Source of the DNA: Microcaldota archaeon
Lineage (GTDB): Archaea; Micrarchaeota; Micrarchaeia; Norongarragalinales; UBA8480
NCBI GenBank assembly: GCA_023247085.1
Contig: JAHFHC010000007.1
Coordinates: 1 to 46,151, forward strand
DNA length: 46,151 nt
Reading direction: 5' to 3'
Within the stretch, counting starts at the first letter, position 1. Each line of letters begins with the position of its first letter. The notes under the pieces are model-generated. The model saw only the letters and a program-made list of their open reading frames with translations, did not search any database and was not told where the DNA came from. A program made the position numbers and the translations under genes. Below are positions 10,972-42,422 of the stretch, in pieces.

Positions 10972-11328
10972 TCAAGCCTCCCTCGCGATTATTTTTATAA
11001 ATTCTTCAAATAGTTTTTCTGAAACTTTATCTGTATTCTGACCAATGATTTGCTCATTGATTTTTTCAGTGTTTTTTATAATTAGTTTACTCTTTTCAAT
11101 TTCTTCTTGCCTAATTCGTTCAATTTCCTTAGTTTTTAACAATGCCGCTTCTTGTTGTGCTTCTTCAATCACTTCTTCAGCTTCTTCTCTAGCACTTGCG
11201 ATAATCTTAGCCGCGTTTTCCTTAGCATTAGTCAATCGAACTTCTATTGAAGCCTCTATCTCCGCAACTTTGTGGATTTCAGTTGTATCTAAATCATCTT
11301 TGGAATGGCTGTTCTGCTCTTCGTGCAT
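10972..11328 (-). CDS. atpH: A-type ATP synthase subunit H
   Basis: Short coiled coil immediately upstream of subunit I (NAKENAAKIIASAREEAEEVIEEAQQEA). Confidence 0.8.
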   Translation of the reverse strand: MHEEQNSHSKDDLDTTEIHKVAEIEASIEVRLTNAKENAAKIIASAREEAEEVIEEAQQEAALLKTKEIERIRQEEIEKSKLIIKNTEKINEQIIGQNTDKVSEKLFEEFIKIIAREA

Positions 11329-40732: not shown

Positions 40733-41476
40733 ATGCGAATAGCTACTTGGAATATTGGTGGTGGTTTCATTCACTCCGGCGACGAGACGAAGTTCGACGT
40801 TGAAGATTTGAATTACTTTATCAGTGAATTGAAAAAATTGAAGCCAGACTTAGTTTCTCTGCAAGAAGCGTTGTTTGTGGAAAATGAACAAAATCAAGTA
40901 GTTGAACTTGGCAAAACGCTTAGTTTTCCGCACGTTGCGTATCGTGTGCATAGTGCTTCTCATTTAAAACAAGGTACTTCAATTGCGCTTGGTATACTTT
41001 CAAAGTTTCCAATTATTTCAACTGAATACCTGCAGTTAACAAACCCACTAATGGAAGTAACTCGACCAAACGGCGAAGTGTGGCTATCTCAAGACAAGGG
41101 TTTCTTACAAGTTACATTGAAAATTAACGGGCAACCTATGCGTGTTTTGTGTGGGCACAATTTTCCATACCATCATTTTAAACGTGATTTCATGCACGAA
41201 GAGTTCAATAACATTCGTGGCGAAATTGAGTCAATTTTTCTCAATTCACGTTTCCCTACAATAGTGGCTGCGGACATGAATTACGACGACTTGCGAAAAG
41301 CAATTCCTAATGTTTTTAGCAATGGTTTTGTAGATGTGTTCAATGAACCTACTATTCCGAAAGGAGTGCAGCAAGACCATGTCATAGTTTCCGAACATTG
41401 TACCGTAAATGATTACAAAATCGTCAAAGGCAAAGCTGATCACTACTTATGCTATGTTGATCTAGAGCTAAAGTAA
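40733..41476 (+). CDS. Endonuclease/exonuclease/phosphatase family protein
   Basis: MRIATWNIGGGF, PDLVSLQEA, VAADMNYDD, DHVIVSE, KADHYLCYVDLEL. Confidence 0.85.
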   Translation: MRIATWNIGGGFIHSGDETKFDVEDLNYFISELKKLKPDLVSLQEALFVENEQNQVVELGKTLSFPHVAYRVHSASHLKQGTSIALGILSKFPIISTEYLQLTNPLMEVTRPNGEVWLSQDKGFLQVTLKINGQPMRVLCGHNFPYHHFKRDFMHEEFNNIRGEIESIFLNSRFPTIVAADMNYDDLRKAIPNVFSNGFVDVFNEPTIPKGVQQDHVIVSEHCTVNDYKIVKGKADHYLCYVDLELK

Positions 41477-41498
41477 AAATTCTAAAAAATAAGTAAAA

Positions 41499-41690
41499 GG
41501 GGAGAACGCTTTCCCAGGAATCAAAAATAGAGGGGTGAACACGAACCGGGGAGGTTCATGTTGATTATCTGGTTCCGCGTTCTCCTGGTGCTTCATCGTG
41601 TCGGAAACGCATATCGTCTCACGAACTAGGCACCTTAGACACCAACTTTCGTCGATGCCATGGGGGGTGTTTGGTGGTTACAAGGTTTTT
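41499..41690. ncRNA. Candidate structured RNA, identity and strand unresolved
   Basis: GGAGAACGC/GCGTTCTCC, AATCAA/TTGATT, CACGAACC-GGGGA-GGTTCATG, GGTGC..CGTG/CACG..GCACC, CACCAA/TTGGTG; no long ORF; minus-strand TATA (GGTATAAAAACC) and T-rich tail favour minus. Confidence 0.4.
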
Positions 41691-41822
41691 ATACCTTGTA
41701 TCTTATACGTGTCAAATTCGTTGGATTCTGTTTGGGTGGGTCGAACGACTTTAACTCGCGATAAGCGTATTTTTTGTTTTATTTCTTTGTAACTAACTAT
41801 TTTTCAACTTTCTATACTCAAT

Positions 41823-42287
41823 TCATTTTTCAGAAACAACTGCTTCAAAGTACACTTTCTTTCCAACTTGTGTTTTCTTTATAATGCCTAATGTACAAAG
41901 TTTGTTGAGCCTCGCACTTGCTGCATTTTTTCCTTTGTACTTAAATTGCTCTTGCACGTCTTCAGCGCAAACCGCGCCTTTTTCTCTTGTGAATGCAATG
42001 ATGGCTTCATCAACAGCAGGGAGCAATATTTTCTTCTCTTTATTTTCTCCTAGATTGTCACTCACTGTCGTAGTTGATGTGGCTAACCTGCTTTCAAGTT
42101 CAGCGATTCGCTTTTCGAACACGTCAATCTTGTCGAGTTTTGCGTTTATTTCTTTTAATAATAAATTTGAACTCTGCCTCTCTTCAGCTAATTTGTGAAG
42201 CAAAGCGCCAACCACTAACGGATCCTTCATTTTGCTAGAGAAATCGCGAAATTCTTCACTTACCTCTGCAAACCCCCCTGAAGCCAT
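41823..42287 (-). CDS. Coiled-coil plus winged-helix transcriptional regulator-like protein
   Basis: C-terminal wHTH EDVQEQFKYKGKNAASARLNKLCTLGIIKKTQVGKKVYFEAV. Confidence 0.6.
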   Translation of the reverse strand: MASGGFAEVSEEFRDFSSKMKDPLVVGALLHKLAEERQSSNLLLKEINAKLDKIDVFEKRIAELESRLATSTTTVSDNLGENKEKKILLPAVDEAIIAFTREKGAVCAEDVQEQFKYKGKNAASARLNKLCTLGIIKKTQVGKKVYFEAVVSEK

Positions 42288-42309: not shown

Positions 42310-42368
42310 GTGACAACCTAGACAACGCTTTGTTGTCACCTTATTATCATCACGATGTCATCATGACA
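42310..42368. promoter_or_regulatory. Operator-like inverted repeats upstream of wHTH gene
   Basis: GTGACAAC(42310)...GTTGTCAC(42339); TGTCAT-C-ATGACA (42356-42368); minus-strand TATA at about 42378-42386. Confidence 0.5.
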
Positions 42369-42422
42369 CATTGAGAGTATATAAAGCTTTTCTGGAAGTG
42401 GGCGTTGCACATAATTTAACCA

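Follow-up and report, generated by a model that had tools for sequence, protein, structure and literature searches.

A structured RNA element behind a wHTH regulator gene in Micrarchaeota, probably its mRNA tail, and a candidate trans-encoded small RNA predicted to pair with it

The locus and its structured strand

The window (the whole 46,151-nt stretch analysed, contig C25 of genome G000) carries an open reading frame for a wHTH regulator on the minus strand (41823-42287), followed on the same strand by a structured stretch. The regulator, of an unnamed family, has a coiled coil and a winged-helix-like domain. Directly upstream of its promoter lies a DDE transposase gene (PF01609, 42423-43517, minus strand), which showed no sign of a role in the RNA system. 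An earlier sequence-only reading had marked 41499-41690 as a structured RNA with no credible ORF, located between an EEP nuclease gene and the wHTH gene. The absence of a credible ORF was borne out, and the folding analysis supported a structured RNA. The minus strand of 41480-41680 folded with −65.2 kcal/mol, giving z = −5.0 against dinucleotide shuffles, and 0 of 200 shuffles were as good. When the 5′ part was added (41480-41768, minus strand), the fold was 6.9 standard deviations below the shuffles (z = −6.9). Because the plus strand showed z values of only −1.6 (41480-41680) and −2.7 (41480-41768), the structured strand is the minus strand, not the plus strand. The element is about 290 nt in size and reaches upstream to about 41768, near the 3′ end of the wHTH gene. 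Its proposed functional core, the loop of hairpin PA (41723-41747), is just outside 41499-41690.

The sequence-only reading had proposed an Rfam scan, folding and covariation as checks. The Rfam scan of the window at permissive thresholds gave no relevant match at the element locus. SRP RNA and RNase P RNA, which had not fitted on first reading, were both rejected: their candidates map to different contigs (RF01857 at G000:C24 and RF00373 at G000:C36, respectively) and neither family had a match within the window. Both archaeal RNAs are likewise multi-helix molecules of a few hundred nucleotides, but the window element matches neither.

Read along the minus strand, the fold starts with hairpin PA (41702-41765), a long stem whose C-rich loop holds the predicted sRNA docking site. 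In the same-genus genome G001, a hairpin with ACCCACCAAAC in its loop was also observed, despite a different stem sequence. The next hairpin, PB (41679-41701), is the ACAAGG..CCTTGT palindrome of the sequence-only reading. Its stem covaries in three genomes, being ACAAGG-TATAAAAA-CCTTGT in the window, ACAGGG-TGTAAAAA-CCCTGT in G002, and CAGAAC-CGTCAAAA-GTTCTG in G001. The palindrome itself is therefore present, but the TATA box seen inside it is more likely a hairpin loop. As the stem covaries across the genus while the loop TATA is lost in both G002 and G001, we rejected it as a promoter, and the free-standing RNA gene that had been built on it found no support.

PB is followed by an unpaired C-rich stretch, AACCACCAAACACC (41666-41679, minus strand), which is conserved in the alignment of the genus's three genomes. 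Hairpin H2 (41638-41659) and helix H3 (41587-41634) come next on the same strand. At the place of H2, a different short hairpin can be drawn by inspection in G001, which is not significant alone, and the G001 fold has a helix at the same place as H3. The GGUGC/GCACC helix that closes H3 was recovered as first described, with a CGTG/CACG-type helix inside it. The CACCAA/TTGGTG stem was absent from the best minus-strand fold, where a local GGCAUCGAC-GAAA-GUUGGUGUC hairpin was formed instead. Helix H4 (41501-41585, minus strand), the proposed transcript-terminal hairpin, is closed by the 9-bp helix GGAGAACGC/GCGUUCUCC, noted earlier as GGAGAACGC/GCGTTCTCC and present. This outer helix is identical in all three genomes and hence uninformative on covariation. 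The U-rich minus-strand 3′ flank was also found as described; it forms a tract after H4 (41473-41501) that probably acts as a terminator. The hairpins PB and H2-H4, which are extra in this genus, are likely to be protective or terminating. When helix lengths around the C-rich motif were tested, the excess was modest (mean 9.4 vs 8.2), and the window itself had none by that measure; a MAFFT structural alignment of the long C-rich-loop hairpins was not usable.

The wHTH gene and its probable 3′ tail

The element also occurs in two relatives in the genus, G002 at 96% identity and the diverged G001; the enlarged tail (PB and H2-H4) is thus known from three genomes, all of one genus. A DNA search beyond the genus returned chance-level matches to the element only. 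In all three genomes, the element lies directly after the wHTH gene on the same strand. The far-side neighbour varies: the window has an EEP nuclease gene there and G002 a YgjP-like gene, and neither of these was seen in the G001 flank. The wHTH side of the placement is conserved within the genus, the EEP side is not. Since same-strand synteny with the wHTH gene is kept while the far gene changes, and since the palindrome is a covarying hairpin that loses its TATA, the structured stretch is most likely the distal 3′UTR of the wHTH mRNA on the minus strand, enlarged in this genus. The tail would then be co-transcribed with the wHTH gene.

Of 147 related genomes, 139 have a relative of the wHTH protein, almost always at a single locus. 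A Pfam search with the protein gave no family above the cut-off, and the wHTH class is our reading of the sequence, from weak Penicillinase_R-like matches together with an operator-like repeat. This repeat, TCATGATGACATCGTGATGA (42347-42366, minus strand), belongs to the wHTH promoter region, where a TATA box (42375-42387) lies upstream of it. The pattern TCAYGA-N4-9-TCRYGA was present in 78 of 88 wHTH upstream regions of relatives (L043-L134), and the reversed-string control gave 0. As a repeat of this type stands beside the TATA box so often, autoregulation of the wHTH gene is suggested. Further TCATGA half-sites are often seen downstream of the repeat. The sRNA promoters inspected did not contain it.

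A candidate small RNA family

Genomes of the window's order carry GTTYRACCCACC at the wHTH end and, as a rule, at a single additional position. We fetched 20 of these second loci. Thirteen showed, on the opposite strand, the layout of a small RNA gene, with a TATA-like box, CGGATTCTGTGAAGGTGGGTTGAACTGGTCGCC or a close variant, a hairpin and a U-rich end; most of the others resembled chance matches inside genes. The second GTTCAACCCACC locus was also considered as a same-sense element, and this was rejected because promoter, terminator and homology are all on the opposite strand. Outside the order, the wHTH end often carries GCAAGGCGACCA. A search with this 12-mer gave matches in 109 of 147 genomes and few for the reversed pattern; here, too, the second locus usually has the form of a small RNA, reading AACTGGTCGCCTTGCCAGCGC..GCGCTGGC and then a U-rich stretch. 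Because the initial search for the second loci used the wHTH motif's complement, a match within that stretch does not count as independent evidence by itself; what does count is the anatomy of the sRNA, the pairs flanking the stretch, family f18 and the loci chosen by the protein.

The predicted sRNA is about 75 nt long, with a TATA box and a covarying terminator hairpin. A TATA-like box was located upstream in 31 of 33 sRNA loci. In the terminator stem, 98% of the cells were paired and four pairs had double changes, values that none of 500 shuffles matched. The sRNA therefore appears to have its own promoter and terminator. A covariance model gave matches in 125 of the 147 relatives and, across the phylum, detected the sRNA in 251 of 301 Micrarchaeota genomes, almost always as a single copy. 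The G000 sRNA is diverged and fell below this phylum-wide model. A sequence model made from the sRNAs of the order gave a match in 25 of the order's 29 genomes (E up to 0.01; a few weak matches fall on the wHTH site, read on its complementary strand), and it found the G000 copy at G000:C5 11241-11276 (minus strand) with E 4e-8. In G001, whose assembly is incomplete, the order model gave no sRNA match. The sRNA matched no Rfam family, and Rfam scans of the wHTH and sRNA loci at permissive thresholds showed no relevant match.

The sRNA locus is separate from its target, on G000:C5 compared with G000:C25, and in other genomes the two are on different contigs or at distant positions. Taken from sequence comparison, these features would make the sRNA a new family and a candidate trans-encoded RNA gene, with transcription predicted. 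Its neighbours are not conserved phylum-wide. The gene lies just upstream of a rhomboid protease-like gene in several genomes (L151, L152, L145, L158 and other loci of the order), and beside a tRNA-like sequence in f1. In one genome, three further GCAAGGCGACCA copies were observed about 26 kb apart (G043:C1 344828, 370817 and 396806; L179, L180); the two that were fetched had identical flanks and look like one repeated sequence.

Predicted pairing with the wHTH mRNA and proposed control

The seed of the G000 sRNA, GGAUUCUGUAAAAAGGUGGGUUGAACG, is complementary to 41723-41747 (minus strand) in the PA loop region, in two blocks of 13 and 9 bp. Block 1, CGUUCGACCCACC (41735-41747), would form 13 contiguous pairs including one G-U, and block 2, ACAGAAUCC (41723-41731), nine contiguous Watson–Crick pairs. 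The best duplex of the G000 sRNA with the whole 3′UTR had an energy of −37.0 kcal/mol, compared with a mean of −16.7 kcal/mol (sd 2.2, best −25.0 kcal/mol) for 300 mononucleotide-shuffled 3′UTRs. Among genomes, duplex energies over whole sequences failed to distinguish own pairs from foreign ones, and the own pair was often not ranked first. Contiguous pairing was used as the measure because duplex energies discriminate poorly, owing to long loops and GC content. The longest Watson–Crick run in 36 genome pairs had a mean of 11.4 for own targets and 6.7 for shuffled targets. Cross-pairing of order sRNAs gave runs of 12.1 with order targets and 7.1 with the targets of other lineages, and the reverse cross gave 6.8. 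At loci chosen by the protein, a perfect complement of at least 10 nt to the class seed was found in 36 of 90, with 0 in the control.

The end of the wHTH mRNA contains a match to the seed in most families, and the two sides vary together. In most families, site GCAAGGCGACCA goes with seed TGGTCGCCTTGC; in f18, site GTTATCCTCCCA goes with seed TGGGAGGATAAC; and in the window's order, site GTTCAACCCACC goes with seed GGTGGGTTGAAC. Genus g11 has GTTTAACCCACC at the sRNA locus and GTTTAA(T/C)CCCCACC at the wHTH ends, a linked change of one extra C. Exceptions exist, and little complementarity was seen in some genomes, for example in f8, f11, f20 and parts of f10, f14 and f18. Overall, seed–site pairing maintained by linked change between lineages is well supported by this comparison. 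In two f18 wHTH 3′ flanks (L089 and L100), the C-rich-loop hairpin appears to be tandemly duplicated.

The 3′UTR of the wHTH mRNA is probably the docking target of a trans-encoded sRNA that would control the mRNA of the regulator. The wHTH transcript would be read from the minus strand through the tail and end at H4 and the U-tract. The sRNA from G000:C5 (about 11241-11276, minus strand) would expose a seed antisense to the wHTH mRNA end, with the PA loop (41723-41747) as the docking site where the duplex may form in the cell. Because, in the lineages examined, the site lies close to the stop codon or beyond it, away from the ribosome-binding site, a block of ribosome binding on the wHTH mRNA is unlikely, and we propose control of stability or of the 3′ end instead. 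Pairing may alter the stability or the 3′-end fate of the mRNA and could thereby set the level of the apparently autoregulated transcription factor. A wider reading, which we hold as tentative and rather doubtful, is that a single-copy, phylum-wide sRNA has one dedicated, co-evolving partner, the mRNA 3′ end of a core autoregulated wHTH gene. The site would have moved between coding sequence and 3′UTR with the divergence of lineages, the 3′UTR would in places have gained anti-Shine-Dalgarno mimics, and the whole would be an RNA switch linking the regulator to translation.

An independent structured non-coding RNA gene, starting from a promoter of its own in the stretch from wHTH to PA or in the TATA-like loop, would make the element a second partner or a sponge of the sRNA. 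The strong fold, the large size of about 290 nt and the AT-rich stretch that separates the wHTH stop from PA agree with such a gene. We consider it unlikely, since the TATA-like loop is lost in G002 and G001, and the site is near the wHTH stop or within the coding sequence in most other families, which ties it to the mRNA.

A still less probable alternative gives the main role to C-rich loops in the 3′UTR, which would imitate the anti-Shine-Dalgarno tail of the 16S rRNA and bind the Shine-Dalgarno sequences of other mRNAs, with the sRNA gating access to the loops. Within 250 nt past the wHTH stop in 90 genomes, C-rich motifs (CCCACC, CCTCCC, ACCTCC) occurred 170 times in the sense and 4 times in the antisense direction, and their density further downstream was 0.1 per 250 nt. 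The motif TTCACCTCCCAC is concentrated in these flanks (25 occurrences in 147 genomes; a manual count from coordinates placed 18 directly behind wHTH and in its orientation), and the 16S tail of G000 is GATCACCTCC. However, the window's own loops have CCCACC and CCACC, which are only partly anti-Shine-Dalgarno, and in the window's order the C-rich motif is the sRNA site itself. This idea became a rival when the antisense sRNA locus emerged. In wHTH 3′ flanks of other families (for example L063, L072, L078), we saw a GC-rich hairpin with a large loop containing CATAATTCACCTCCCAC, which resembles the 16S anti-Shine-Dalgarno tail; in families of this type the sRNA does not cover this motif. Alphaproteobacterial anti-Shine-Dalgarno sRNAs (cuckoo RNAs, NfeR1 and relatives) have C-rich loops able to pair with Shine-Dalgarno sequences, and some come from 3′ UTRs. 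The present loops have a similar capacity, but here the mRNA tail holds the C-rich motif and a separate sRNA its complement, in another domain of life and with no homology. The cuckoo-type CCUCCUCCC hairpin-loop motif was absent from the sRNA sequences inspected.

The element could also be an unusually long terminator region, its complementarity being an old inverted duplication. H4 with its U-tract is terminator-like and the complementary site is short, but complementarity with linked changes is kept across lineages whose flanks share no other similarity, and the sRNA is nearly always single-copy with a covarying terminator stem, so this reading is highly improbable. The H/ACA guide suggested for the plus strand, from an ACA after the last plus-strand stem, can practically be dismissed, as the plus strand has the weaker fold, Rfam gave no snoRNA match, and synteny and docking site place the transcript on the minus strand.

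For the preferred reading, docking of the sRNA on the wHTH mRNA, the closest mechanistic parallel is Methanosarcina sRNA154. This intergenic RNA is reported to stabilise several mRNAs, including that of the transcription factor nrpA, and was proposed to mask cleavage sites (PMC5867862). Compared by description, both would be small intergenic RNAs that pair with mRNAs, including that of a transcription factor, and act via mRNA stability. They differ in that sRNA154 is known from Methanosarcina and has several targets, whereas here one recurrent site near the mRNA end is found phylum-wide, with linked changes in seed and site. A review calls the functional study of archaeal sRNAs "still in its infancy" (PMC5867862), and our literature search found no report of a Micrarchaeota sRNA. 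In the collections and papers searched, an sRNA that spans a phylum and co-evolves with its target site in a core regulator's mRNA has no precedent. If this reading is true, sRNA control in reduced, uncultured DPANN archaea becomes directly testable and offers a clear-cut example of how targeting close to an mRNA 3′ end evolves through linked changes. Further gains are a candidate new RNA family and a first functional lead for an unnamed, near-universal core wHTH protein.

The position of the docking site differed among families. In most other families, it was within a few tens of nucleotides of the wHTH stop or inside the coding sequence; in f10 and f14, it lies in the coding sequence, about 40 nt before the wHTH stop codon. 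In f10/f14 wHTH genes (for example L108, L120, L123), the site CTGGCAAGGCGACCA encodes GKAT, and the gene is followed by a simple terminator-like hairpin and lacks the longer 3′UTR element.
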